The translations under genes were made by a program, and so were the position numbers. Below the pieces are notes generated by a model. That model had not been told where the DNA came from. It worked only from the letters and a program-made list of their open reading frames with translations, and made no database searches. Shown here piece by piece: positions 33,721 through 62,994 of a DNA stretch of 64,000 nucleotides (position 1 is its first letter; each line of letters starts with the position of its first letter). Source of the stretch: Liolophura sinensis (Eukaryota; Mollusca; Polyplacophora; Chitonida; Chitonidae); NCBI RefSeq assembly GCF_032854445.1, contig NC_088300.1, positions 8,928,001 to 8,992,000 on the forward strand, read 5' to 3'.

Positions 33721-36700
33721 ATAAATCCATGCACATGATATGTGGTTCTTGAACACTGCTGAATGTGATAACCCACGTACAAACTAAATCTATATGAATA
33801 AGTTATGAATAAGTTATATAATGGTTGATAGTGGACCAGTTTCTACATTTTATAGCCAATTGTAAATCCCTCTATTAAGTATAGTTTCAGTCATCCAGAA
33901 GCCAAATAATTATCAACATCACTGTGATCATTATGCTTGATAACGGTAATAGTAACTGTATCAAAATGTCGCTCACAGAATAAATAAAAGTTGTGATCTA
34001 CATATATATCAAGATATCATATGCATGTAGTTTGAATAATCATTTTATGATACTGTTTCCTCTCCGGCTGTAAGTGGGAAGGTCTTTCAGCAACCTGCGG
34101 ATGGTCGTGGGTTTCCCCCCGGTTTCCTTCCACGATAATGCTGGCCGCTCTCTTATAAGAGAAATATTCTTGAGTATGGTGTAAAACACCAATAAATAAA
34201 TAAATAAATAAATAATAAATAAATAAATAAATATAATACTGTTTCAACTGCCTAGCATCAAAGAATTTAATGTGCTGAAATCTTGTGGACAGCAGAAGTG
34301 CTTTGGGGAAAATGTAATACTTAAAATGTTTGCATGACATTCATTTCTTAAGGAACAGTTGTGCAGAAACCTGAACAAAAGAGAACAAAAATTAAGTCTC
34401 CTGTACATTATTTGCCTTGCACCTGATCTTATCTCCTGTTGCATGTTATGTAGCTGCGAGATGAAGACCTGTCCAAAGAGATGCAGGAGTCAAACTGGTT
34501 CTCTGCTCCTTCAGCACTGAGGGTGTATGGTCAGTACCTCAACCTGGACAAGGACCACAATGGCATGCTTAGTAAAGAGGAGCTTGCCAGGTTAGTCTAC
34601 TCATTATGGACTGTTTCTGTCCCTCATTGCCTCAGATCCATAATGGATGAGTAACGAGAAGCTGGCAAGATAAGTCCACTCATTATGGACTGTCTCTGTG
34701 GCTGAGTGCCTCAAATCCACAATGGCATGCTGAGTGCAGAGGAGCTGGCAAGGTTAGTCTACTCATCATGAACTTTTTCTATGGCTGAGTGCCTCAAATC
34801 CACAATGGCATACTGGGTAAAGAGGAGCTGACCAGGTTAGTCTACTTATCATGAACTTTTACTATGGCTGAATGCCTCAAATCCACAATTGCATGCTGAG
34901 TAAAGAGGAGCTGACCAGGTTGGTCTACTCATCATGAACTTTTACTATGGCTGAGTGCCTCAAATCCACAAGTGCATGCTGAGTAAAGAGGAGCTGACCA
35001 GGTTAGTCTACTCATCATGAACTTTTACTATGGCTGAATGCCTCAAATCCACAATTGCATGCTGAGTAAAGAGGAGCTGACCAGGTTAGTCTACTCATCA
35101 TGAACTTTTACTATGGCTGAGTGCCTCAAATCCACAATTGCATGCTGAGTAAAGAGGAGCTGACCAGGTTAGTCTACTCATCATGAACTTTTACTATGGC
35201 TGAATGCCTCAAATCCACAATTGCATGCTGAGTAAAGAGGAGCTGACCAGGTTAGTCTACTCATCATGAACTTTTACTATGGCTGAATGCCTCAAATCCA
35301 CAATTGCATGCTGAGTAAAGAATAGCTGGCAAGGTTAGTCTACTCATGAATTGTTTTCTATGGTTGAGTGTCTCAGATCCACAGTGGCATGTTGAGTAAA
35401 AAGCTGTCTAGTCTACAGGCCTGAGTAAAGAGCTGCATAGTCCACATCCCCGAGGAAACAGCTGTCTAGTCTACAGCCCTGAGTAAAGAGTTGTCTAGTC
35501 TACAGCCCTGAGTAAAGAGTTCTCTAATCTACAGCCCTGAGTAAAGAGCTGTCTAGTCTACAGCCCTGAGTAAAGAGTTGTCTAGTCTACAGCCCTGAGT
35601 AAAGAGTTCTCTAATCTACAGCCCTGAGTAAAGAGCTGTCTAGTCTACAGCCCTGAGTAAAGAGTTCTCTAATCTACAGCCCTGAGTAAAGAGTTCTCTA
35701 ATCTACAGCCTTGAGTAAAGAGTTGTCTAGTCTATAGCCCTATGCATCATGTGTAGTCATGATTAACTATTTCACCAGCTGAGTGATTTGATTGACAGAT
35801 TACCTAAGATTCAGCCATGATATGCATCATACTATTTAGTATTGTTTTGCTATTAAAACAATACTAAAAAAAACTAAAATCTGTGTCAAAAACTAAAATC
35901 TGTGACTCAATCCTTGAATACCTCCTTGTGCTGGGTCAAGTGTGATCATGATGAATCAACAACTTCTGTGGTTCAGGTGGCTTACATTCAGTTGAAAGAA
36001 TGATTTTCTAGGTGGTGCTAAGTTTAAGAACACTCGGCAAGTGTGACCCTCACTTTGAAGGTTTAAACATGTAGGAGAGTTCATCAGTTACTTGCCGCAG
36101 GTCAGTGGTTTATCCTGCCTGATATAATGAAAATTTACTTGAGTACAGTTTATCCCTAGTCAAATATATCAATGATTTAATGGCTCTTTAGCCACAATTT
36201 ATTGTTTATTTTCAGGTATAGTACCCACTAAGGACAATATTAAAGGTTCTTTGTTTTTGTATGTTTTCAGGTATGGCATTAATAATTGTTCGTTTTTTTG
36301 TGTTTATTCTCAGGTATGGCACATTAATAATAGTTCTTCGCTTGTGTTTATTCTCAGGTATGGCACAGGGACCTTGACTGATGTTTTCCTGGACCGTGTC
36401 TTCCAGGAGTGTTTGACCTACGATGGAGAGATGGTATGAACAGCCCGAGCCAGTGTCTCAGTGAATATAGTTGATAAATACAATGTATATAGAAGCTTCA
36501 ATTGATCCCACTAAAACTGTTATAAACTTTCTTTACAAACAGTCCTTACAAGCAGTAAAATAGTCAGTCAGTTCACTTTAAATATTTTCTCTAGGCTGCA
36601 GACAGGCTGAGTTTTATGAGACAAAATTGCCTTGTTTAACGCTAAGGAAGTGAGAAGCCCTGGTTCTACTCAGCCACATGACTATTTGCTCTCAGAGCTG

Positions 36701-38750
36701 TGTTGTACTGCTTCTGTTGGCTCTCAGAGTAAGTAGGCGAGTTTTGCACTGCTTCTGTTGAGCATCAGAGTAGGTGGTCAAGGTTTAGCCCTTGGAGTAA
36801 GTAGCCAATTTTTGTACTGCTCCAGTTGGCCACTGGAGTAAGTAAGCAAGTATTGTACTGCTGCTGATGGACATCAGAGTAAGTAGGCGAGTTTTGTACT
36901 GCTTCAGTTGGACATCAGAGTAAGTAGGCGAGTTTTGTACTGCTTCAGTTGGACATCAGAGTAAGTAGGCGAGTTTTGTACTGCTTCAGTTGGACATCAG
37001 AGTAAGTAGGCAAGTTTTGTACTGCTTCAGTTGAACATCAGAGTAAGTAGGCAAGTTTTGTACTGCTTCAGTTGGACCTCAGAATAAGTAGGCAAGTTTT
37101 GTACTGCTTCCGTTGGACATCAGAGTAGGTAGTCGAGGTTTGTTCTGCACTAATTGGCCCATGGAGTAAATTTTGTACCAGGGTAAGTAAGCCAGTTTTA
37201 TACTGCTTTAAATTGGCTCTCAGATTGAGTAGGCAATTTTGTACTGCTCCAATGTCCTTGGAGTAAGTAGGCAAATTTTGTACTACTTCAGTGGGCAACC
37301 AGAGGAAGTAGGCAGGTTTTGTAATGTTTTATTTATTTGTGCAGGATTACAAGACTTACCTGGATTTTGTTCTGGCCCTTGAGAATAGGAAGGAGTCCCA
37401 GGCTCTGCAGTACCTCTTCAGGATTCTAGATGTCCAGAACAGAGGTTATCTCAATGTCTTCTCCCTCAATTACTTTTTTAGGGTAAGAAAAATTTTTATC
37501 TAACTTGTAAGTGGAAGAAATTCTTGCATGCATTTATCTATGCCAATGTGTTTAATCTGCTTGCTCTAAACTTACAGCATGGTATTGGCAAAAAATGTCC
37601 AATATGCTGCAAAAACTTAATCCTTCAACTTTAATTAATAAATAAGCATGGTTAGATGATATTATCTGGTCTAAATGTCACACAAATGTAAAATATCGTC
37701 AGTAAAGGCGTGCTGTGCTTTTAGAAATAACCTTACTGTGTGTCTCCTTTTGATTTTCGGAACTTATTGTCTAGTGTCCCAATTCCCCCCAAGCCCCCAC
37801 CCCCCCATTAAATGTTTTATAAGTGAAATAAGGAGTAGCAATCTGCCAGTCAGTGGTCTGTGTAATGTGATATTTCATGCAGTGCTGTGCTGTTCTCAGG
37901 CTATTCAGGATCAGATGAAGTTGCATGGTCAGGAGCCTGTGTCATTCCAGGATGTGAAGGATGAGATATTTGACATGGTGAAGCCGGCTGACCCTCTACA
38001 TATAACATTACAGGATCTGGTCTGCAGGTGAGTTATGCGACACCACCGCTCTGAGATGACTTTGATGAGGTGTGATGACGGGTGGTTGATGTCGTATAAA
38101 TTAAGATGCATAGAGATTTTTTCAATGATATCTGACAGGTGTGCCTGTATATTTACAAGTGTGTGTGTGTTCTGAAACGAAAATAAAACTTTTGTTAACT
38201 TATTCACTTCAGTACCTTAATGTAATTGCATGTTATCAACTTTATTTTTTTTGGAAGCTTTGCGTATTAATTGTTTTGGTAGAAAGAAGCAGACTGTCTC
38301 TGCAAGTTCATGTGTTGGACATCTATTTATACGGGCAGATTTTTCGTGGAATTTAGGATTGGTTTTTGTTTATGTTATTATGTTTTGTTTGCTGAATGTG
38401 TGAGCACATGAGTATTGGTATTGTGTTGAATATCATTGTACTCCAAAGTTAATACAAAAATTGAAGACGGAAGACTGGAAGTGGACTGAGTAATACAAAA
38501 GACTTTAAATATGGTGTCTTGGCGATAGCACTTGAGAGATTAAAGCAAGGACAAATCTTTGTTGTGAATCTTTTTTTTTATTGAATTTTCTGCACCTACC
38601 AGTACTAATTGTATGTTACTTGTTTGTGTTGACAGTGGTCAGGGTGACACAGTTGTCAGTATACTGATTGACCTTAATGACTTCTGGACATATGAGAACA
38701 GAGAGTATGCTGTGGCTGAGACGTCCGAGACAGAAGAGGTGGAGGTGTGA
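19365..38750 (+). CDS. PPP2R3C: Protein phosphatase 2A regulatory subunit B''-gamma (G5PR)
   Basis: Thirteen exons: 19365-19407, 24735-24862, 26564-26613, 27486-27540, 27897-28009, 28476-28644, 29245-29289, 30057-30200, 34454-34590, 36358-36433, 37345-37482, 37900-38027, 38636-38750. All are GT-AG with consistent phases, giving 446 residues (the human protein is about 453). The protein matches PPP2R3C throughout: FFNYVMRKVWLHQTRIGLSL, KFFFFLDPMRTGKIKI, DILACSFLDDLLE, VSFQDVKDEIFDMVKP, ending NDFWTYENREYAVAE. A canonical EF-hand loop occupies residues 281-292 (DKDHNGMLSKEE) and a degenerate one 226-237. The family recruits PP2A and PP5 catalytic subunits and, in vertebrates, acts in lymphocyte survival and at centrosomes. 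The start at 19365 (MDWAKTLKK) aligns with the human N-terminus; an in-frame ATG at 19332 would add 11 residues. Several introns carry minisatellites and transposons. Confidence 0.97.
21070..21222 (+). mobile_element. SINE family A copy
   Basis: AGCAGCCTGCGGATGGTTGT, a CTCTGC/CCTTTCC segment, CATATAAGTGAAATAC, CTTGAGTACGGCATAAAACA and a terminal AATAAATAAATAAAT. The 5' head is missing. Confidence 0.85.
21301..21796. mobile_element. Fold-back element with arms of about 215-230 bp
   Basis: The left arm (21301-21515) is an imperfect inverted copy of the right arm (21569-21796), separated by a spacer of about 53 bp. Matching blocks, read in the same sense, include GACACCAACC, CCATATGTCCCTACT, GATTTATTATAGCCATGAAG, TCCAACTC and CGAACAAGT. 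There is no ORF of note. The size and structure fit a non-autonomous DNA transposon (MITE or fold-back). The target duplication is unclear. Confidence 0.85.
24590..24705 (+). mobile_element. SINE family A copy just upstream of PPP2R3C exon 2
   Basis: Carries CCGCCATAATGCTGGCTGTC, GTCGTATAAGTGAAATATTC, TTGAGCATGGCGTAAGACAC and an A/T-rich tail. It ends about 30 bp before the 3' splice site of exon 2, so it borders the polypyrimidine tract. Confidence 0.85.
27145..27425 (+). mobile_element. SINE family B copy
   Basis: Shares with 62440-62745 the blocks GGATCAAACCCAGGTT (a B-box-like tRNA segment), AAGAAGTTAAAGCA, GGAAACAGGACTGGTTGGC, GGGGTGTCATGTCTGGT and CACACCTAATGA. It lies in the intron before PPP2R3C exon 4. 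Confidence 0.7.
29007..29190 (+). mobile_element. SINE family A copy
   Basis: AGTCCAGCTCATGCTGACTT, GGTCATGGGTTTCCTGTTGA, GTCGTATGAGTGAAATATTC and TTGAGTACAGCGTTAAAGAC, with a TATAAATAAA tail. The 5' tRNA-like head is incomplete. It lies 55 bp before the 45-nt exon 7 of PPP2R3C. Confidence 0.8.
30337..33077 (+). mobile_element. Decayed DNA transposon with TTAA target duplication
   Basis: TTAA flanks both ends (30333-30336 and 33078-33081). The termini are inverted repeats: GGGAAGGAGTTAG at the left, GGGTAGGAGCTAG read from the right. Between them lies a broken plus-strand transposase-like coding region, about 30858-32533, split by frameshifts and stops. The recognisable tract is MPKCHDKAVRSNIGKTTEQM followed by HHYHNCPKGSCSWCFWKRDI (31820-31995), and the C-terminal part EVAQEICDKRKHARKLELAE lies near 32380. 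I associate these with animal transposases annotated as Mutator-like, and TTAA duplications suggest the Kolobok group; both are from memory. It lies inside the intron between PPP2R3C exons 8 and 9. Confidence 0.75.
30858..32533 (+). pseudogene. Degenerate transposase gene
   Basis: Open segments at 30858-31100, 31169-31432, about 31485-31610, 31820-32032 and 32312-32533 lie in different frames but read as pieces of one protein. It begins with a basic, Ser-rich N-terminus, has His/Cys-containing zinc-binding-like motifs in the middle (HNCPKGSCSWCFWK), and ends with EICDKRKHARKLE. Each break is a frameshift or stop, so it is not expected to make active transposase. Confidence 0.65.
33510..33722 (+). 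mobile_element. SINE family A copy, well preserved 3' end
   Basis: GTGAGTTCAAGTCCAGCTCA (a B-box-like segment), CTTCCTCTCCGGCCGTAAGT, AACCTGCGGATGGTCGTGGG, CCGTCGTATAAGTGAAATAT and GAGTACGGCGTAAAACACCA, then an about 30-base poly(A) tract. The long uninterrupted A tail suggests a fairly recent insertion. Confidence 0.9.
34057..34233 (+). mobile_element. SINE family A copy
   Basis: CTCTCCGGCTGTAAGTGGGA, AACCTGCGGATGGTCGTGGG and TATAAGAGAAATATTCTTGA, ending in repeated AATA units (AATAAATAAATAAATAAATA). The 5' head is missing. Confidence 0.9.
34559..35335 (+). repeat. 83-bp minisatellite made of the exon/5' splice site of PPP2R3C exon 9
   Basis: The unit contains GCATGCTGAGTAAAGAGGAG then CTGACCAGGTTAGTCTACTC. 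This is the last 30 or so bases of the coding exon that ends at 34590 (GGCATGCTTAGTAAAGAGGA, GCTTGCCAG) plus its 5' splice site (GTTAGT). About 10 copies follow one another; the first two or three are more diverged, the middle six nearly identical. Each copy keeps an AGGT donor-like site. Confidence 0.9.
35397..35745 (+). repeat. 29-bp minisatellite
   Basis: About a dozen units of GAGTAAAGAGTTGTCTAGTC plus TACAGCCCT, with two alternating variants (GTTGTCTAGTC and GTTCTCTAATC). GAGTAAAGAG is also present in the 83-bp unit just upstream, so the two arrays may share an origin. Confidence 0.9.
36205..36360 (+). repeat. Repeated 3' splice sites before PPP2R3C exon 10
   Basis: The sequence TTTTCAGGTATNG or TTCTCAGGTATGGCA occurs four times (about 36210, 36267, 36310 and 36352). 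The last is the acceptor used in the gene model, because AG|GTATGGCACAGGGACC continues the conserved protein. The spacer ATTAATAATNGTTC is also repeated. Confidence 0.8.
36710..37325 (+). repeat. 41-bp minisatellite in PPP2R3C intron
   Basis: About 13 units of TCAGAGTAAGTAGGCGAGTT plus TTGTACTGCTTCAGTTGGACA. The central copies at 36870-37080 are nearly identical and the outer copies are decayed. The array ends about 20 bp before the 3' splice site of the exon at 37345. Every intact unit contains the strong 5' splice-site consensus AGAGTAAGTAGG. Confidence 0.9.
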
Positions 38751-40742: not shown

Positions 40743-41254
40743 TTAACAAAATGACTACACGTGTACCTCTGTAACACATGTAAAGCGGGCCTTGGTAAAG
40801 CGATTTGGATGAAATATGGTGCTCAGCTTAGCCCATCGACTAAAGTTTCGCGGAGATCCAGGAACATTTAAAACAATTGAGTGGACACAAATGTGGAGTA
40901 TCATCCTTTCGTCTGTAGTTGGCGACGATGACAGGCATGCATTTTCATGGATTTGGGACACCGGAGTGTTTGGCGTAAACCACCAATATGCACACCATGT
41001 TACTGGAAGACGAGGCATTCAACCTCAACACCGTTTTAGGCCTGTAAGTGAAATTTTCCTGAGTAAAACGTAAGAAACACCCATCAGAAAAATAAAACTG
41101 TCAATTCCTTCATGCGTTTGATGTCGTCTTATCAAGGTGGCCAAGTTGGCCTATCTGACCCCCTCTTGCCAGATTCCCCCTCGACCCCAACTAACACGAA
41201 TATCAAAATGAAACGCCAGACGAACGCAGAAATTGAAATACTTGGTAACAAGTT

Positions 41255-41260
41255 TTTAAT
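41255..41260 (-). terminator. Candidate poly(A) signal of the selenoperoxidase
   Basis: On the minus strand this reads ATTAAA, the commonest variant signal, about 35 nt beyond the SECIS element. The assignment is by position. Confidence 0.35.
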
Positions 41261-41284
41261 GTACAACTCCACATCTTTGAGGTT

Positions 41285-41370
41285 AATCCGCCCCGGTCAG
41301 TGTGTTCAGCCTGGAAATTCCATCCAGTGCAGTCTCCACATGGGTTTCTGACCACACCTTCATTAACTCC
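41285..41370 (-). promoter_or_regulatory. SECIS element in the 3' UTR of the glutathione peroxidase
   Basis: On the minus strand: ATGA (41363-41360), a 12-base arm AGGTGTGGTCAG, then AAA (41347-41345) in the apical region, a further internal hairpin region, then CTGAACACAC pairing back to GTGTGGTCAG with a single mismatch, followed by TGAC (41299-41296). This matches the SECIS layout: an AUGA...UGA non-Watson-Crick quartet, 12 bases to the unpaired adenines, and a long helix. It lies about 430 nt after the stop codon. SECIS elements recruit SBP2 and the selenocysteine elongation factor so that in-frame UGA is read as selenocysteine. Confidence 0.9.
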
Positions 41371-41789
41371 ATAACTGAATAACTGGCAGGTGAAAGATTA
41401 GCCTCAAAAATGTTATTCTGTTTGTTTTATTGTTGTTGTTTTTATGTCGTTTCTTTTTCTTCATACATTTTTTTCTTCTTCATACATATTTCCATAAGTG
41501 TCAGATTATATATGCCTAATGTGGGAAATGGTTTGTTGTTGGGATTATATCCAGCGGTTAGGTATAAATAAAATTAAATATATTCTTGTCCTCTTCAGTG
41601 ACAAATACAGCGAAAGTGACATCAGACATTTACCCCTCGTTCCCCTGTCCTGATGAATGAATATTCACGAAGTAATGCGGATGACCTAATGCCTAAACAT
41701 TGGGCTCAAATCCATAGCCGCGTTCTGTTATATGACTTCCGTAAATATACTGTGGTGTATAAACTAACATAAAAGGTTCTCCAGTCAGA

Positions 41790-44700
41790 CTATGACTTCT
41801 CGTCTTGAACATTGAACTGTTTCACCAAACTTTCAATGTCGCCTTTGATATTAATGGTCTGGAAGTTTCTGGAGTATCTGCGGAACGGTTTGCCATCCGG
41901 GCTGACGAGGAACTTCTCAAAGTTCCAAGAAACATCGGTTCTGGTGACAGGGTCCCAGATAATTAAGCGTGGGTCTTTCATCAGACTGACACCGTCGTCG
42001 CTGGGGTAGGGTAGCCGCTCTCTCAGGAATTGGAACACGGGGTGTGAGTTTTTCCCGTTCACATCAATTTTCTCCATCATGATGCACTGAGGTTCGAATC
42101 CGTCTCCAGGCCGGACATACTTCAGGGAAAGCAGAATCTCCTCGCCTTTAGCATTCTCCTGCAGACAGAAATATACTTTTCGTAAGAAATCATACATTTT
42201 CAAACTACAGAAAAAACGGTAACAGGAGCTTGTAGGGAGAAGTATTTCATCACTTTATGCAGATGAGGCTATAAAATCATACTGAATAAAATCTTTTATA
42301 ACGTTTTTGTAGGTATAAGATTTAGTTGTTTTACATCACTGTTGAATTGTTTGTTGACTAAGACGGTAGTATCCGGTGGTGAGTGTTTGACGGCTTCATT
42401 GTGACTAAATACGCCCCAGCCTGCGACGCCTCATAAAAGGCAATTATATCACCGAAGATTTTAGGGCACGTGTAAATTACGCCTTAATAAGAATTTGATT
42501 AACAGATTACAGAATGAAACCTTAAATGAGGAAAACTGTTAAGAGGATGGATCTCTTCCATTATGTGTGATTATTTGCCAGCTATTGCGTTTTTGGTATA
42601 GTTTTACAAAACACCAGTGGTATCGGGAACAGTGAGTATCAGTAATAATCGAGTCACGAAATGTGGAGGCGCCACACAGTTGTATTGGGAACAATAGGTA
42701 AAACTGCGTCACACAGTGGTATTGGGAACAATGAGTAAAACTGCGTCACACAGTGGTATTGGGAACAATGAGCTTCAGTAATAATCGCGGCCCAAAATTT
42801 GGTTGCGTCACTTAGTGATATAGGGAACATTGAGCGTCAGTAATAATTGGGTATCAAAAACTGCATGCGTTACCCAGTGATATAGGGAACAGTGAGCGTC
42901 AGTAATAATCACGGCGCAAAATTTGGTTGCGTCACCCAGTGATATAGGGAACATTGAGCGTCAGTAATAATTGGGTATCAAAAACTGCATGCGTTACCCA
43001 GTGATATAGGGAACACTGTACGTCAGTAATAATCGGGTACCAAAAACTGCATGCGTCAAACAGTGATATAGGAACACTGTGAGTCAGTGATAATTGGGTA
43101 TCAAAAACTGCATGCGTCACCCAGTGATATAGGGAACACTGTGCGTCAGTAATACTCGCGGCCCAAAATTTGGTTGCGTCACCCAGTGATATAGAGAACT
43201 GGGTGACGCAGCTGACTTATTACAACTGACTCCAGATTCCTGCGTGCGTCAAATTACATTGTTAATTTGGAAATTGTTCTTGCAAACAGGATCGTCCCTT
43301 ATAGTTGACGATTGGTATATACGAATGTCCCTCGATATACAATGATTTTGGGAACACTCAGCGTCAGTACCAATCGGGTCACGACTTCAACATACGTGAA
43401 ACAATGGTATCGGGGAGATCGAGTGTTCTATCTTGTGCGTGCGTAATGCAGTGGTATTAGGAACACCGACGATCACTGACAATTGGATCTCCAAATCTGT
43501 AAGCAGCCGGATTTCACCGCGTAGGGGTGACCATATGCCAATGTCACACTCTTGCTACTACACTGGTTTTACTCCCAAGACTTTGTTGTTTATATCAGTA
43601 ATAATCGAGTCCCGACCTTAATGCGTCGTAAATGGTACTGGAAACACCGAGTGTTGGTGACAGTGGTATCCGGAAATCTGTGAGCGTCACACAAGGGTAT
43701 TGGGAAGGTGGGGGGGGGGGGGGGGGGGCTGGGGGGGGGGGGGGGGGGGGTGAACACCCGTTACATTGTCATCCCAAGCTGAATGACATTATAATTTTCT
43801 TCTATATGACACTGCAGATTCTAGAGAATGACTAATACATGCATGTTAACGAAAGAAATCTGAACACCACAGGCAGGCGAACAGATTGCGGTCGGAATGT
43901 GGTACGAAGGTGCGACAACTTTTACATAATACTTATATTTTATGGTGTAGTGTCAACGTGTACATGTTAATGAAAGTCACGCAGAACAAACCAGACGTTC
44001 GAGAATCACCCATCATGTCAGAACAATAGCTTATGGCGCTCTGACTAGTCTGCAACCGGATACATGCGGGATAATGCACTAAATATATACCATAGGAATT
44101 AGCTCTGTGCGGAAATAAAGCTTCGTTAGGCGGACATCCTGGTTGTGCTATAATGCGCAGACCACTGGCTTAAACAGGTGAGCTAAAGCCAGGCATGAAG
44201 CCTGCCATATATACACCTGTAGCACAACCTCGCCCAGACAGACACATGGATAGTGTGTGCGTTGGATTATTAAAAACATGTTTGATGGAACGAAGTCAAC
44301 GACTAGAATATAAGGCGTACCTGAAATTACACAGTTAACTATTGCTACATCTTTTCATGAATGTAAAATAACTTGTTTTATGACATATTCATCGACCATT
44401 TCGCCTTTCATTTCTGTCTTTCTGAACTGGTGTACATCCCGTTTTTAAAAGGTCAATGCTTACTACATGAACATAGCGTGTTAAATGGTCAATATGAACT
44501 ACATCCCGTGTTAAATTATCAAAATAAAGTACATCACGTGTTAAAATGATCAGTATTAACTATACACCCTGTGTTAAAATGGTCAATTTAAACTATATCC
44601 TGTGTTAAAATGGTCAATTTAAACTATATCCTGTGTTAAAATGATCAATATGAACTACATCCCGTGTAAAATAATCAATATGAACTACATCATGTGTTAA

Positions 44701-45741
44701 AATGATCAGTATGAACTATACACCCCGTGTTAATATGGCCAATATGAAATACACCCCGTCTTAAAATGATCTGTATGGATTACAGCCCGTGTTAAAATAG
44801 TCAGAATGAACTACACCCCGTGTTAAAGTGGTCAATATGAACTACACCCTGTGTTAAAATGATTTGTGTGGATTACAGCCCGTGTTAAAGTGATGGTCAG
44901 CGTCTTTCGGAGAATTTATCAAACTTGATGAAGAACGTATTTACATAAAATTTGGCCGACGTCGTACAGCTGAAATATTCTTGAATACGGCGTAAAGCAC
45001 CAATGAAATAAATAAATATATTTTGAATTCCTCAAACTGCGGCAGGAGAGCATTTGCATAAAAAGTGTACTAAACACGATGGCGAGTCTCTTTGCTCAGT
45101 ATCTTCATATTTACACAAATGGTGACGAATGTATTTCCCCACAATCTGCATATTGTTTGAACTTGGTGACATGGCAATCAGCACATTGACTGAACATGAT
45201 GGCATTTGAGATCTTGATATTGACTGCCCATGAGAACATTGCAATCAGCATACTGACTGAACATACGACCAATTAATGTATTTGTGAAAGCATCTATATA
45301 TACGCATGCAGGTAGTCACCTGACTTCATTACAAATTTATTCAGTCGAAATCTACTTGTATATGTCTATACATATCTGGAAATGTATATTTGCTCTCTCA
45401 TATGACATTACAAAAGTAATTTAATCGCAACTATGCACGTATCATGACGGTATACGTGCGCCTCCAACACGAAGAGGGAAGTATTTCCATAGAACTATTT
45501 ATCATACCTGGTGTCCGAATTGGTTGGAGGGAAATCCCAGGATAACAAGCTTATCCCCGAACTTGGAGACCAGCTCGTTCATCTGGGTGAAATCCCTGGC
45601 TGTCGTGCCTCAGAGAGATGCCACATTCTCCACGAGCACGACGCGCCCCTTCAGCTTAGCAAAGCTCAGCATCTCACCATCCAGCTTGAGCGCTGAGAGA
45701 TCGAAGAAACTCTGAATCTTCACTGGGCTTCGCACTGCCAT
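41790..45741 (-). CDS. Selenocysteine-containing glutathione peroxidase (GPx1/GPx2 type)
   Basis: Two coding exons, 45741-45508 and 42158-41790, joined in phase 0, give 200 residues when the TGA at 45612-45610 is read as selenocysteine (residue 44, context VENVASL[12 protein letters not shown]). It reduces H2O2 and organic peroxides with glutathione. Catalytic partners are visible: Gln78 (FPSNQFGHQ), and Trp-Asn in [21 protein letters not shown] near the C-terminus is typical of GPx1/2. The start [10 protein letters not shown] is chosen because the upstream exon part lacks another ATG. A noncoding first exon ends at 46152 (GT) and splices to 45815. The SECIS at 41285-41370 supports recoding. 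The 3.3 kb coding intron is loaded with tandem repeats. A conventional gene finder would truncate it at the TGA. Confidence 0.95.
42620..43225. repeat. About 60-bp minisatellite in the selenoperoxidase intron
   Basis: Roughly nine units of CCCAGTGATATAGGGAACA.. GTGAGCGTCAGTAATAATCG, alternating GGTATCAAAAACTGCATGCG with GGCCCAAAATTTGGTTGCG. Two subtypes of the second half alternate, indicating a higher-order repeat. Units further right (43320-43700) are more decayed. Confidence 0.85.
43710..43751. repeat. Interrupted poly(G) tract
   Basis: About 40 bases almost entirely G with single CT and T breaks. A similar run of G is at 11070-11087. Such tracts can form G-quadruplexes and often have uncertain length in assemblies. 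Confidence 0.8.
44460..44895. repeat. About 30-bp minisatellite
   Basis: About 14 decayed units of TGTTAAAATGGTCAATATGA plus ACTACACCCCG. It lies within the coding intron of the selenoperoxidase gene. Confidence 0.85.
44950..45022 (+). mobile_element. SINE family A, 3' fragment
   Basis: GCCGACGTCGTACAGCTGAA, ATATTCTTGAATACGGCGTA, AAGCACCAATGAAATAAATA. Only the shared tail domain remains. Confidence 0.85.
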
Positions 45742-46152
45742 CTTGCTGATGCTGCTGCTGCTGAACTGTCTCTGTACTCTACTCGGTTTTATCTCTCTAT
45801 ACAGAGGCCTAAAGACTGAAAGAGAAAAGCACAGCTGGTTGAGGCGCCTATACATACCGCTATATGCAGACATGATAGAGGTCACTCGATAAAACAGTAT
45901 TAGACTAAGCTTAACTTGTACACTATGTATTTAGATCTCTGTGTCTCTGAGTAAAAAGGTTCATCTGTACCCGTGCCTGACTGGGCTATATTGGCATACC
46001 CCTTTCAGACAGCCCAAGATATACAGGAGCTCATGTACGTGATCCGGGCGGTCGTTAAAAGGTAGAGTGGGCCGAAGGATAAGCCCCAGTCCAGAAAAGT
46101 ACGGCTGAAGACGCTATAGTCTACATAAGACGGACAAAGACGAGAACCTACC
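45742..46152 (-). other. 5' UTR exons of the glutathione peroxidase
   Basis: On the minus strand a 5' splice site CAG|GTAGGT follows 46152 and an acceptor TTTCAG precedes 45815, leaving 74 nt of leader (45815-45742) joined to the ATG. The upstream exon contains no open start codon (ATGACATAG only). The start of transcription is not defined; sequence above about 46250 is GC- and CpG-richer than the surroundings. Confidence 0.6.
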
Positions 46153-47846: not shown

Positions 47847-47904
47847 TTGTTGATTTTAAATTGCTGTAATATTTCAATCGTAATCAGTTGTTTTGTGTGT
47901 AGAA

Positions 47905-48950
47905 ACCATGTAAGTACCTCGCCAGGTTTATGTTTGAATGCTAGAAACCATGAAAGCACCTCGCCAGGTTTGTGTGGGCATGGTAGAAATCATGTAAGAA
48001 CCTCTCCACGTTTGTGTGGCCATAGTAGAAACCGTGTAAGAACCTCTCCAGGTTTGTGTGGGCATGGAAGAAACCATGTAAGCACCGCTCCAGGTTTGTG
48101 TGGACATGGTAGAAACCGTGTAAGAACCTCTCCAGGTTTGTGTAGACATGGTAGAAATCATGTAAGAACCTCTCCAGGTTTGTGTGGGCATGGTAGAAAG
48201 CATGTAAGAACCTCTCCAGGTTTGTGTGGGCATAGTAGAAATCATGTAAGCACCTCTCCAGGTTTGTGTGGGCATAGTAGAAATAGTGTAAGAACCTCTC
48301 CAGGTTTGTGTGGACATGGTAGAAACCATGTAAGCACCGCTCCAGGTTTGTGTGGACAAGGTAGAAACCGTGTAAGAACCTCTCCAGGTTGGTGTGGGCA
48401 TAGTAGAAACCATGTAAGCACCGCTCCAGGTTTGTGTGGACGTGGTAGAAACCATGTAAGCACCGCTCCAGGTTTGTGTGGACATGGTAGAAACCATGTA
48501 AGCACCGCTCCAGGTTTGTGTGGACATGGTAGAAACCATGTAAGCACCGCTCCAGGTTTGTGTGGACATGGTAGAAACCGTGTGAGAACCTGTCCAGGTT
48601 TGTGTGGGCATCATAGAAACGATGTAAGCATCGCTCCAGGTTTGTGTGGACATGGTAGAAACCATGTAAGCACCTCTCCAGGTTTGTGTGGACATCATAG
48701 AAACCATGTAAGCACCGTTCCAGGTTTGTGTGGGCATAGTAGAAACCGTGTAAGAACCTCTCCAGGTTTGTGTGGACATCATAGAAACCATGTAAGCACC
48801 GCTCAGGTTTGTGTGGACATGGTAGAAACCATGTAAGCACCTCGCCAGGTTTGAGTGGACATGGTAGAAATCATGAAAGAACCTCTACAGGTTTGTGTGG
48901 GCATGATAGAAACCATGTAAGCACCTCGCCAGGCTTGTAGGGCATCAGCT
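47905..48950. repeat. 42-bp minisatellite, open in three frames
   Basis: About 25 units of GTAGAAACCATGTAAGCACC plus TCTCCAGGTTTGTGTGGACATG. Because 42 is a multiple of three, stop-free frames run through most of the array: 329 codons on plus (repeat GRNHVSTAPGLCGH) and 287 and 299 codons on minus. Variation between units is mainly at a few fixed sites (ACC/ATC, CTC/CGC, GGCATAG/GACATGG). No upstream gene context was found, so it is called a minisatellite and not a gene. Confidence 0.85.
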
Positions 48951-49654: not shown

Positions 49655-50970
49655 CAAAACAGACATGAATTCACTTCTCCCTACACTCTGAGGATGGCTT
49701 ATGGACAGTTCAGACAAATTCACTTCTCCCTACACTCTGAGGATGGCTTATGGACAGTGCAGACAAATTCACTTCTCCCTACACTCTGAGGTAGGCTTAT
49801 GGACTGTAGACAAATTCACTTCTCCCTACACTCTGAAGTAGGCTTATGGACAGTGTAGAAAAATTCACTTCACCCTACAATCTGAGGTAGGTTTATGGAC
49901 TGTAGACAAATTCACTTCTCCCTACACTCTGAGGATGGCTTATGGACAGTGTAGACAAATTCACTTCTCCCTACACTCTGAGCTAGGCTTATGGACTGTA
50001 GACAAATTCACTTCTCCCTAAACTCTGAGCTAGGCTTATGGACAGTGGAGACAAATTCACTTCTCCCTACACTCTGAGGTAGGCTTATGGACAGTGTGGA
50101 CAAATTCACTTCTCCCTACACTCTGAGGTAGGTTTATGGACAGTGTAGACAAATTCACTTCTCCCTACAATCTGAGGTAGGTTTATGGACTGTAGACAAA
50201 TTCACTTCTCCCTACACTCTGAGGATGGCTTATGGACAGTGCAGACAAATTCACTTCTCCCTACACTCTGAGCTAGGCTTATGGACTGTAGACAAATTCA
50301 CTTCTCCCTAAACTCTGAGCTAGGCTTATGGACAGTGGAGACAAATTCACTTCTCCCTACACTCTGAGGTAGGCTTATGGACAGTGTGGACAAATTCACT
50401 TCTCCCTACACTCTGAGGTAGGTTTATGGACAGTGTAGACAAATTCACTTCTCCCTACACTCTGAGGTAGATTTATGGACAGTGTAGACAAATTCACTTC
50501 TCCCTACACTCTGAGGTAGGTTTATGGACAGTGTAGACAAATTCACTTCTCCCTACACTCTGAGGTAGGTTTATGGACTGTAGACAAATTCACTTCTCCC
50601 TACACTCTGAGGTAGGTTTATGGACTGTAGACAAATTCACTTCTCCCTACACTCTGAGGTAGGTTTATGGACAGTTCAGACAAATTCACTTCTCCCTACA
50701 CTCTGAGGTAGGTTTATGGACAGTGTAGACAAATTCACTTCTCCCTACACTCTGAGCTAGGCTTATGGATTGTAGACAAATTCACTTCTCCCTACACTCT
50801 GAGGTAGGTTTATGGAGTGTAGACAAATTCACTTCTCCCTACACTCTGAGGTAGCTTATGGACTGTAGACAAATTCACTTCTCCCTACACTCTGAGGTAG
50901 ATTTATGGACAGTGTAGACAAATTCACGTCTCCCTACACTCTGAGGATGGCTTATGGACAGTGCCGACAA
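49655..50970. repeat. 47/49-bp minisatellite
   Basis: About 27 units of ACAAATTCACTTCTCCCTAC plus ACTCTGAGGTAGGTTTATGG and either ACAGTGTAG or ACTGTAG, so two unit lengths (49 and 47 bp) are mixed. A block of several units (about 49860-50090) recurs at about 50160-50400, showing a larger duplication inside the array. Confidence 0.95.
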
Positions 50971-51104
50971 AGCATCGATGTTCAGTTCATACAGCTGAAG
51001 GAACTGGCAAATAATGACATCATTAAACTTTCTTTCTGTATAGAAGATAAAGTGTCATCGTTTGTAGATTGTTGTCACTTTTGTTATACTGGTGTAGACA
51101 CTTG

Positions 51105-58700: not shown

Positions 58701-61700
58701 GTTATAAAGTTACTCAATTATATATAATGTTGACTATAAATTATACCAATGCTTTGTGTAGGACTAATGCTGAAATTGAAATAATGGTCAATGACTTACA
58801 AATGAAGAGCATAACAGATGAGACCTTTGTTGAGCTCCTCCACCATGGGTACAGTTAAAACCTGCACCAGATTCACAAATGCCCGTGGAACAGAGTCGTG
58901 CAGCGTGTCCAAGGCTGCCTGGACATCTCTCAGGTAATTCGTGGCACTGAACTTTTCCTGCAAGGGGAGACAACCACGACACTCAATCATACTGAACATA
59001 TTTATATGGGTAATGGATATCTTAATTTTACAAGCTAATAATCTAATAACTAGGTCAGGGATAGATTAAAGAAAGCAGGCTCTAGGACTTGCGACAACCA
59101 CACATCAAGAATGAAGCTGGGTTTCAAATGGCTAGATTCAAATACAGTCTAATATTAATATATATACCCAGCATAGTTCTGTCAATGAAATATTTGTACT
59201 TCATATTTGACAGAATTCTTGTGCTGTACGATTGTTTTTGGCTCATTCAAACTTCACTCCATTACACTACTTGCTTGCTTGTACCTTAGTTCTGGGTCAA
59301 AATATTATGATTTACAACCATCGAAAATGTTTGACTATGAGTTGTTGTAGAAACTGCCTCTCTGTGTTGTTGTGGACACTGTGTATGTGTTTCCATGTAG
59401 ATTGCTGCACTTTGTGTTGCCATAGACATTGCTGAACTTTGTGTTGCCATAGACATTGCTGAACTTTGTGTTGCCATAGACATTGCTGACCTTTTTGTTG
59501 CCACAGACATTGCTGAACTTTGTGTTGCCACAGACATTGCTGAACTTTGTGTTGTCATAGACATTGCTGAACTTTGTGTTGTCACAGACTTTGTTGACCT
59601 TTGTGTTGCCATAGACATTGCTGAACTTTGGGTTGTCAGAGACATTGCTGAACTTTGTGTTCCCTTTGACATTTGCTGGACTTTGGGATGCCATGGACAC
59701 TGCTGGACATTGCCATGGAGACTGCTTCAGAGATACGCTGTGGCTGCTTCACAGAACCTGTCCATGGGAGACAGCAGAACTTACCTGGTCCTCACAATAA
59801 TCACACAGGTCGTTCCCCCCGATAAAGAGAGTGATCACCTTCCAGTCATTCTCAAAGTCCACCCCCGGCTCTGTCTTCAGGCACTCCACCAGCAACTTAG
59901 CTTGGCCTGGCATGTCACTGGGGGAGGGAGACATACACACAATTAGATACCTACATGTATATTCAGGTGACCTCTTGATTCTCGGTTAGGCCCAAGTGAA
60001 TATTCATTTTAAGTGAACATTTACTAAGTTACTGCTCTAGAATCAGCCAAATTAAGATGAACAGAAAGCAGGTCTCAGTGAATACTTTATTTCAGTAAAA
60101 TAATGCTTACCCACATCGGTCCACTGCTTAGGGATCAGTTATATGATGAGAAGTAACCATAGTATTATGGCCTTAGGTGAACACTCCAGATCAAGAGAAT
60201 ACTGAATTTAATGACTACTTACAGATATCTAACTACTGCTCTAGGATCAGCTATGCTTAGATGAGAATCAATCTTAGTATTATGGACCTTAAGGGAATTC
60301 TCCATTTAAGTAAATACTTAATACCTAGCTACTGTCCCAGGATCAGCTATATTTAGATGAAAATCACACCTAGTATTATTGGCTAGTTGAATATTCCATT
60401 TAAGTGAATATTACATTCAAGCGACTGTACTTACCTAGTTGCTACTTGCATATCAGGTCTATTAAGATGATAATTAAAACTTAATGAATACTCCCATTTT
60501 AGTGAATACTGAATTTAAGTGACTATACTTACCTAGCTACTGCTCCAGGATCAGCCACATTCAGATGAGCATTCCTGCTTTCATAGGAGCCAGTCTTCAC
60601 AGAAAAGCCTTTCACATTGGGGTTGTACTTCTTGATAAAGTCTTAAAAATATTTTTTAAAAATGTCACTCACTGAAATAGGGTAAATCTGTTAAAAGATT
60701 TGTTGGCCTGTGACAAAAAGACATCAAATTTAGTACTAAATCAACCAAAACAACAGGTCCAGTTTTAACAAGAGAAAATATTTGTTGTCTTATATTTTCC
60801 AGCTTATAGGAAAACATTATGTGATGCCAAAAAAAATGCCTTTTATGTCGTAATAAGTTATTAATTTATATTAGGTCAGCACAAAATATTGAGAATATTT
60901 ATAGCTGTGACCGTGATCTGTGCATCAGTGATCTGGTAGCCTCAACTACTTACTGGGCAGAGTTGGAGCTTCCTCAGCAGTCAAATCTCCACCACCACTG
61001 TAAAAAGAGTAATGGCTTGCATCAATACCTGATTTTGATTTTTATCACTTTCACAGGTAAAATTCCTTCCTAAAGATTTGCACTGCCAAACTATCCAGAG
61101 TTTTGACTACACTGGGACTAGCCTAAGGTGTCAATTCTGACTACATCATCTGACAAGCCCCCAGTGTCACACTCTGACAACATAGACCAAAAAGCCTCAG
61201 GTGTGACTTTCTGACTACACTGCCAGACAAGCCTCAGGTGTCACATTCTGACTAAATTGCCAGACAAGCCTCAGGAGTCACATTCTTACTGCATTGTCCG
61301 ACAAGCCTAAGGTGTCCCATACTGACTAAATTACCTGTCACATTCCGACTACACTGCCTGACAAGCCTCAGGTGTCACATTCTGACTAAATTGCCTGACA
61401 AGTCTCAGGTGTCACATTCTGACTAAATTGCCAGACAAGCCTCAGGAGTCACATTCTAACTACATTGTCCGACAAGCCTAAGGTGTCCCATACTGACTAA
61501 ATTACCTGTCACATTTCGACTACACTGCCTGACAAGCCTCAGGTGTCACATTCTGACTAAACTGCTTGGCAAGTCTCAGGTGTCACATTCCGAATACATT
61601 GCCCCAGAATTCTTAGGTGTTATATTCTGACTAAATTACCTGACAAGCCTCAGGTGTCACATTCCGCCTACATTGCCTGACAAACCTAAGGTGTCAATTC

Positions 61701-62994
61701 TGACTATATCATCGGAAAAGCCTGAGGTGTCAAACTCTGAATACATTGCCTGACAACCCTCAGGTTGTCCGACAAGCTGCAAGTGTCACATTCTTACTAC
61801 ATTACCAGACAAGCCTCACAATGTGATGTTGTTGTTATCAGGTCTAAGATTCCAATGTCACACCACAGGTGTGATAATCATTAGTCTTTATCTTCTCACC
61901 TCCATGACAGTCCTCTCCATTCCCTCAGCAGACCAATGATGGTCAGAGCCTTCACCCCAGTACCAGCCTACAAGCAGACCAGCAAACATACATGTACACA
62001 CATGGCTAGTTCATCAAGATGAACAAGGTCAAGGTACGAAGAGTGCTATTTTAAAATTCGAAAAATTCATTGTAAATACTGAGTTCATCCCTCCCTCTCA
62101 AAAAACCTCGCACATTTCCCAACATCTGCTCGATGGAAAGGATTTCAATGATGTAGTTTTGGTGCCTCAAAAGTTACCTGCAGCAATGAAAATGCTAATA
62201 TTTTTTCATGCCCTTCTGGGTTGGATTATAAAGATTTAAACTGCCAAAACATATCAGTTACATATCAAAAGCACAAGTAGATCACAAAGCAACGAGTTAA
62301 ATAGCTACATCAGTGAGGGTAGTAAAGTAAGACGATACTACTCCAAGATTCCACCAGAAAATGACACAGAACTGAGCACTGAAGGTCAGTTCATACAAAC
62401 GCAGCAAAACTCGCAACACTGCAGACCACCTCGGTGAACTAATGAGCGTGCGTCTCAAAGTTGGGAGACCTGGGATCAAACTCAGGTCGGCTCATACCAA
62501 AGACTTTAAAAATGGTACTTGTTGCTGTCTTGCTTGGCGCTCAGCACTGAGAAGTTAAAGCAAGGAAATCGGACTAGTTGGCATGGTTGTATGGGGTGTC
62601 ATGTCTGGTATCTTCCATATGATCAGTGGTGGCAGCATTCGCCCTGCCAGAAGAGGACAGAGCATATGTATGCACACCTAATGACTTCTCATCATCATAA
62701 GACTGAAAAACTGTTCGTAAGTGTGACGTAAAACACCATATAAGCGTTCAAACATACATTTCAGCACTATGCTGTATTATAACTCATCAAACAATGTCAA
62801 AGGGCAGTGCTCTGTTTGTAATGAACACAAGATAAGAAACTCATGTGAAGACATGACGTAAGTCTAAACTGCATTACCCTCAAAAATCTTTACGTAAGGC
62901 ACAAAAACCTTATTACATGTACATATCATACTTACTGTTAGCGAGTCTCCGAGGGCTGCAACCACACCTACATTAACTGGGCTTAGCCTGTGGA
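55744..62994 (-). CDS. Phospholipase B1-like GDSL lipase, membrane-anchored; N-terminus not found
   Basis: Exons found (high to low): 62994-62936, 61967-61900, 60997-60954, 60641-60533, 59917-59785, 58957-58800, 58569-58389, 57896-57798, 57200-57135, 56076-55744; all GT-AG and in phase, 416 residues. The first begins in phase 1, so at least one upstream exon with the signal peptide is missing, probably near or beyond the right edge. GDSL-hydrolase blocks are present: AALGDSLT (nucleophile Ser), [14 protein letters not shown] (block III Asn), and [12 protein letters not shown] (catalytic Asp and His). [17 protein letters not shown] and PRAFVNLV are typical of phospholipase B1, a secreted or brush-border enzyme that removes both acyl chains from phospholipids. 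The last exon encodes a Gln/Ser/Lys-rich stalk, a hydrophobic membrane segment of about 22 residues (about 55910-55835), and a short basic tail. One lipase domain is seen; mammalian PLB1 has four. Confidence 0.92.
56188..56300 (+). mobile_element. SINE family C fragment
   Basis: Second copy of the element seen at 15853-16010 (GTCAGGTTTGTAGGTGAAGG, AGCCAGCAACCTCATTCATA). It lies directly upstream of the family A SINE at 56305. Confidence 0.45.
56305..56571 (+). mobile_element. SINE family A, near full-length copy
   Basis: A tRNA-like head with A box TGGCTCAGTTGG (56311-56322) and B-box-like GTTCAAGTCC (56381-56390), the body AGCTCATGCTCACTTCCTCT and GGATGGTCATGGTTTCCCC, the shared tail GTATAAGTGAAATATTCTTG, and a terminal (AAAT)n. 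It is the most complete copy in the window and defines the family. The body and tail recur in about ten places here. Confidence 0.9.
56725..56935. repeat. 21-bp minisatellite
   Basis: Ten units of ATGTTGGCACAATGTACAAC plus C. Because 21 is a multiple of three, open frames appear on the minus strand (repeat ANMVVHC). Intronic in the lipase gene. Confidence 0.9.
57585..57800 (-). repeat. 41-bp minisatellite seeded by a 5' splice site of the lipase gene
   Basis: On the minus strand each of about six units reads ACATGGTAGGGACATTGTTG followed by TACATTGTAACAGTGTAACAT. The first unit is the exon/intron boundary of the exon 57896-57798 (AATAACATG|GTAGGGA). All units therefore carry the last bases of the exon plus a copy of the donor site. 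Confidence 0.9.
59395..59710. repeat. 27-bp minisatellite
   Basis: About 11 units of GACATTGCTGAACTTTGTGT plus TGCCATA. It is in the lipase intron left of the exon at 59785 and gives stop-free frames on the minus strand. Confidence 0.9.
61095..61820. repeat. About 37-bp minisatellite with higher-order duplication
   Basis: About 19 units of GCCTCAGGTGTCACATTCTG plus ACTAAATTGCCTGACAA. A block of several units at 61240-61365 is repeated at 61420-61545, including the odd sequence CCCATACTGACTAAATTACC. It lies in the lipase intron between the exons at 61900 and 60997. Confidence 0.9.
62440..62745 (+). mobile_element. SINE family B copy
   Basis: CTGGGATCAAACTCAGGTC (B-box-like), GAGAAGTTAAAGCAAGGAAA, GGTTGTATGGGGTGTCATGT, GCACACCTAATGACTTCTCA and a 3' end GTGTGACGTAAAACACCATA. 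It pairs with 27145-27425. Its 3' end resembles the tail of family A (GCGTAAAACACC). Confidence 0.7.

Follow-up and report, generated by a model that had tools for sequence, protein, structure and literature searches.

Analysis of a 64,000-nucleotide stretch of the genome of the chiton Liolophura sinensis (NCBI RefSeq assembly GCF_032854445.1, contig NC_088300.1, positions 8,928,001 to 8,992,000; hereafter the window, numbered from its first letter) revealed a minus-strand gene that is very probably a GPx1/2-type selenoprotein glutathione peroxidase (GPx), in which UGA codon 44 is read as selenocysteine (Sec); we put the probability of this reading at about 0.95. Recoding is the best explanation because the reading frame is conserved before and after the TGA, a selenocysteine insertion sequence (SECIS) lies in the 3′ untranslated region (UTR), the Sec machinery is present in the genome, and seven sibling GPx genes have a TGA at the same site. 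The same four lines of evidence support the Sec recoding proposed in an earlier sequence-only reading of this DNA. The anatomy of the gene, its homology, the SECIS-like element and the machinery genes were all observed in the assembly. The coding region comprises the following features.

45508..45741, minus strand: exon 1 of the GPx1/2 gene, codons 1 to 78, ending CAG/gtatga
45610..45612, minus strand: in-frame TGA, codon 44, the Sec codon at the catalytic position (VASL-U-GTT), placed by alignment
42159..45507, minus strand: single intron, phase 0, 3349 bp, between GHQ and EN
41790..42158, minus strand: exon 2, 122 codons plus the TAG stop codon (41792-41790)

The frame starts with the ATG at 45741 and is split by a GT-AG intron with the donor CAG/gtatga after 45508 and the acceptor ctgcag/GAG at 42158. 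The joined frame of 603 bases contains stop codons at positions 44 (TGA) and 201 (TAG) only and specifies a product of 200 residues, counting codon 44. The product matched the Pfam family GSHPx (PF00255) with an E value of 8.4e-34 (115.8 bits versus a curated cut-off of 27). The best relatives with solved structures were GPX2 (E = 4.3e-80, 271 bits) and GPX1 (E = 3.2e-75, 255 bits), followed by the epididymal form (139 bits), GPX6 (132 bits) and GPX3 (130 bits), with natural GPX4 at about 75 bits or less and GPX7 and GPX8 at 65 bits or less. Ranked by these structure-database scores rather than by a tree, the product appears closest to GPX1 and GPX2 among the GPX types. Identity to solved GPX2 (2he3) amounted to 116 of 183 aligned residues (21 of 35 preceding the TGA, 95 of 147 following it), and identity to solved GPX1 (2f8a) to 119 of 186 aligned columns. 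These alignments bear out two claims of the sequence-only reading, namely, that the TGA at 45612-45610 occupies the Sec site of GPx1/2 and that the frame runs past it, through an intron, into a second exon. The motifs NQF (residues 73 to 75), WNF (156 to 158), RDF, RPG and RRY are kept, and alignment and motif position place U44, Q74, W156 and N157 at the positions of a Sec, Gln, Trp, Asn tetrad. We take this tetrad to be the catalytic one and the kept motifs to have catalytic or glutathione-binding roles. Besides Sec, the product contains one cysteine (residue 103). The intron carries two minisatellite arrays, at 42669-43199 and 44477-44894.

A young pseudogene, in which the TGA would be a true stop and the gene dead, would likewise show a lone in-frame stop. 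This explanation is scarcely credible here, since the gene contains no frameshift or further internal stop, its splice sites are intact, its sequence is conserved past the TGA, the TGA falls exactly at the catalytic Sec site, and a SECIS is present. Nor did an intact parent copy turn up: a search of the assembly with the 571-bp 3′ region, within the stated limits of that search, detected no second copy, the only match being to itself.

The recoded window gene belongs to a larger set. All genome searches covered the 632 contigs of the assembly (609,464,459 bases), in which the Pfam search returned 15 GSHPx exon matches, seven of them, including that of the window gene, with one in-frame TGA. 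In the fifth gene of a tandem array of five GPx genes on contig C1 (C1:34845391-34866426), the TGA lies in a separate, apparent exon end. The TGA-bearing GPx genes number eight by Pfam search and reading, as opposed to a selenoprotein pipeline: the window gene, the five tandem genes on C1, one gene on C3 and one on C7 (33.04 Mb). From their sequences, we presume the C1 and C3 genes to be GPX3-like and the C7 gene to be GPX4-like. In a further GPx copy, at 26.35 Mb on C7, cysteine occupies the Sec site. Hydrophobic, signal-like N termini were seen in the four first exons of the C1 array that were read.

The 3′ region of the window gene contains a hairpin that begins about 430 nucleotides past the stop codon and lies 5′ of an ATTAAA at 41260. 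The features of this region are as follows.

41305..41379, minus strand: SECIS element, located with our own scanner and forced folding, with a sub-threshold match to Rfam SECIS_1 at 41373-41310
41255..41260, minus strand: ATTAAA, a possible polyadenylation signal 3′ of the SECIS
41426..41431, minus strand: AATAAA, 5′ of the SECIS

The lower stem of the element pairs 41379-41367 with 41316-41305, and the upper stem pairs 41358-41350 with 41334-41326 in nine bulge-free pairs. The core consists of AUGA (41363-41360) and GA (41324-41323), with AUGA(A) and (G)GAU supplying the quartet, and the AAA lies at 41347-41345. The scanner, which was built after the element had been seen and is distinct from SECISearch, looks for AUGA, an upper stem, AA, GA and a lower stem; it found here an AUGA and GA core, an upper stem within 7 to 15 bp and an unpaired AA. 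The element was the single candidate in the GPx 3′ region and the top one of four on both strands of the window at a helix score of at least 14. When the 599-nucleotide 3′ region was shuffled 3000 times with dinucleotides preserved, 2 shuffles reached the element's score of 28.0 and 313 yielded any candidate at all. Over a background of 241,146 bases that included both window strands, the top scores were 28.5, 28.0 (the GPx element itself), 25.5 and 22.5.

The sequence-only reading had described a 3′ UTR hairpin with an AUGA, AAA and UGA signature. A hairpin with AUGA, AAA and GA is present, but the helix proposed for it, GTGTGGTCAG with CTGAACACAC, is not supported, its 3′ arm being the wrong one. 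In the earlier pairing, GTGTGGTCAG and CTGAACACAC would form the upper stem, with the core UGAC at 41299; 9 of the 10 positions do pair, and the helix score is 18 versus 19 for the alternative arm at 41334-41326. As the helix scores alone are so close, the arm was chosen on grounds of symmetry and energy, from the lower stem and the Rfam alignment, and by comparison with other elements of the genome. The earlier pairing has a 1-nucleotide bulge next to the quartet, a G-A mismatch and an apical region of 38 nucleotides. Its geometry falls outside the loop ranges used for eukaryote-like SECIS elements in PMC11227280, which, in the excerpted text, were chosen for searching Asgard archaea and specify a loop of 8 to 20 nucleotides or a bulge of 4 to 12 nucleotides plus a ministem. 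When forced, the earlier pairing folded at −20.4 versus −22.7 kcal/mol, which is 2.3 kcal/mol worse than the 41334-41326 arm, and its mean pair probability was 0.012 versus 0.39. The first bases of CTGAACACAC (41309-41300) lie within the lower stem of the SECIS. The sub-threshold SECIS_1 alignment also takes the 41334-41326 arm, whose pattern AUGA-N-GGUG ... CAC-N-N-GAU recurs in two deiodinase candidates from this genome. We therefore consider the GTGTGGTCAG and CTGAACACAC helix very unlikely, and the corrected pairing is the version for reporter testing.

Stretches downstream of 10 genes of the same genome served as controls for the scanner, the best candidate per stretch being taken: the five C1 GPx genes, the GPX4-like gene of C7, three deiodinase genes and one SelM/Sep15 gene, for which the matched part lacked the TGA and Sec was assumed. 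The best candidate scored at least 22 in nine of the ten stretches, the exception (17.5) being the second gene of the C1 cluster. The stretches total about 46 kb, in which the background rate would yield fewer than one score of at least 22. Single control elements are unproven, and in the four genes for which distances were given, the candidates lay as far as 2.9 kb from the match to the coding sequence. Two deiodinase candidates on C13 closely resemble the window element (AUGA-(A/U)GGUG ... CAC-N-N-GAU).

Several observations weigh against the SECIS assignment or the selenoprotein reading as a whole. The scanner site scoring 28.5 (C7:26.342 Mb, on the strand opposite to a GPx exon) outscores the window element. 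The Rfam SECIS_1 match at 41373-41310 has only 21.4 bits against a gathering score of 35, with an E value of 1.3. The 91-nucleotide stretch around the element has a minimum-energy structure other than the SECIS fold (−24.0 kcal/mol when free versus −22.7 kcal/mol with the SECIS fold forced), under an energy model that leaves the non-Watson-Crick quartet out of account, and the unconstrained fold of a wider stretch of 96 nucleotides is non-SECIS. The AATAAA at 41426-41431 would cut the SECIS off if used. No good AUGA-type candidate was found for the second gene of the C1 cluster, one of the ten controls, or for the C3 GPx gene, which stands outside the list of controls. In the protein, the cysteine of the FPCNQ motif of GPX1 and GPX2 is replaced by serine (FPSNQ).

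Two further sets of observations concern these loci. The plus strand at C7:26.342 Mb carries two SECIS-like sites (28.5 and 25.5) about 300 bases apart, opposite a cysteine-type GPx exon, and this pair may be due to chance or belong to an unrecognised gene. About 190 bases past the last exon match of the TGA-bearing GPx gene at C3:22788415 lies a candidate whose core is UUGA. Rfam searches of the window at the gathering threshold returned no family, and a loose threshold applied to 40900-45800 returned the below-cut-off SECIS_1 match plus four further weak matches.

The genome also holds machinery for Sec insertion, comprising two tRNA-Sec genes, SepSecS, an EFsec domain and an SBP2 domain. 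A search with a tRNA-Sec model gave 32 matches, five of them above the cut-off, after scoring of 53 of 31,556 first-look candidates. ARAGORN called tRNA-Sec(TCA) at C6:47908678 and C5:1088976, which are identical at 86 of 87 bases and lie on different contigs. SepSecS exons were found at C6:76.14-76.15 Mb, the EFsec domain at C13:17.07 Mb, and two L7Ae exons, whose best solved match was SBP2 (E = 2.2e-35), at C2:16.054 Mb. A third tRNA-Sec match at C6:47907698 was rejected as a gene: it is a diverged copy about 1 kb from C6:47908678, scores 59.3 versus 80 bits and received no ARAGORN call. ARAGORN reported no tRNA anywhere in the window.

Transcription, splicing, Sec insertion and enzyme activity of the window gene would be expected from knowledge of the family. 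In such a scheme, the SECIS in the 3′ UTR would bind SBP2, EFsec carrying Sec-tRNA would be brought to the ribosome, and the ribosome would read UGA 44 of the GPx mRNA as Sec. The product would then reduce hydrogen peroxide with glutathione through its Sec, Gln, Trp and Asn residues.

The natural GPX1 and GPX2 enzymes have Sec at the active site and a 3′ SECIS. The chiton product resembles these cytosolic vertebrate enzymes over its full length and in the position of the active site, but differs from them in FPSNQ in place of FPCNQ, in the single cysteine 103 besides Sec, and in a possible presequence-like extension. Among invertebrates, excerpts of PMC3473315 list four selenoprotein GPx genes in the mollusc Lottia gigantea, three in Capitella and nine in Nematostella, where a GPx gene cluster is described, and report AUGA_AA SECIS elements in almost all of the non-sponge invertebrates covered there. 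The chiton gene is like these in encoding a Sec-containing GPx and in its AUGA_AA SECIS; the species is another one, with the eight TGA-bearing GPx genes counted above. Since selenoprotein GPx genes have already been described for invertebrates, including Lottia, in those excerpts (PMC3473315), the window gene is an ordinary member of the family. A literature search combining selenocysteine, chiton and glutathione peroxidase found no paper. With the present analysis, a chiton genome gains a well-supported GPx1/2 selenoprotein gene and its SECIS. Automatic annotation easily mishandles genes of this kind; the expectation of the sequence-only reading that it would probably cut the protein at residue 43 or call it broken fits the excerpted part of PMC12822975, which concerns vertebrates.

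The window gene may have a second translation start, as the frame extends upstream of exon 1.

45742..45873, minus strand: possible in-frame N-terminal extension of 44 codons, resembling a mitochondrial presequence by inference, with ATGs at 45873 and 45855

By alternative starts, one gene could yield a mitochondrial form from the ATG at 45873 or 45855 and a cytosolic form from the ATG at 45741, a possibility that we regard as doubtful. The frame is open upstream of 45741 as far as a TAA at 45933, which occurred by chance in 4.4% of 20,000 random stretches of 63 codons. The 44 residues have a net charge of +7, with six arginines and one acidic residue, contain RQFSSSS and end in RQFSSSSISK; we take this Arg-rich, acid-poor composition to be the look of a mitochondrial presequence. 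Filters for presequences, set after the sequence had been seen, were passed by 3 of 740 open frames made of an ATG plus 44 codons, two of the three being this extension, as compared with 1 of the 738 others. There is also an analogy in the excerpted text of PMC4446787, in which an in-frame AUG further upstream gives rise to a mitochondrial form of GPX4, and GPX1 is reported in both cytoplasm and mitochondria. Against such a form, a strong splice-acceptor-like stretch, TTTTCTCTTTCAG, judged by eye, ends at 45815 within the extension, and an mRNA initiated from the TATA-like ATAAAA (45792) and the initiator-like TTCAG (45765) would begin past the upstream ATGs. The start context, again by eye, is better at 45741. 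The GC content at third codon positions, 0.57 in the extension versus 0.69 and 0.62 in exons 1 and 2, respectively, favours neither view. If the alternative starts were used, a single GPx1/2 selenoprotein gene would supply both cytosol and mitochondria, an arrangement like that of GPX4, and if the presequence is real, the gene would offer a testable case of GPx1/2 dual targeting.

Elsewhere in the genome, a search for the Rdx family gave one weak exon match. Within the window, the neighbouring open frame at 37675-38028 had no Pfam or PDB match. On the plus strand at 34452-35741, the end of an EF-hand exon, together with its splice donor, is copied in some ten tandem repeats of 83 bp downstream of the exon, beyond which lies a 29-bp array of related units. 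This exon is presumably PPP2R3C-like, PDB giving a general EF-hand similarity only. Outside the GPx intron, minisatellite arrays of the window include those at 47898-48938, 49668-50971 and 61101-61765.

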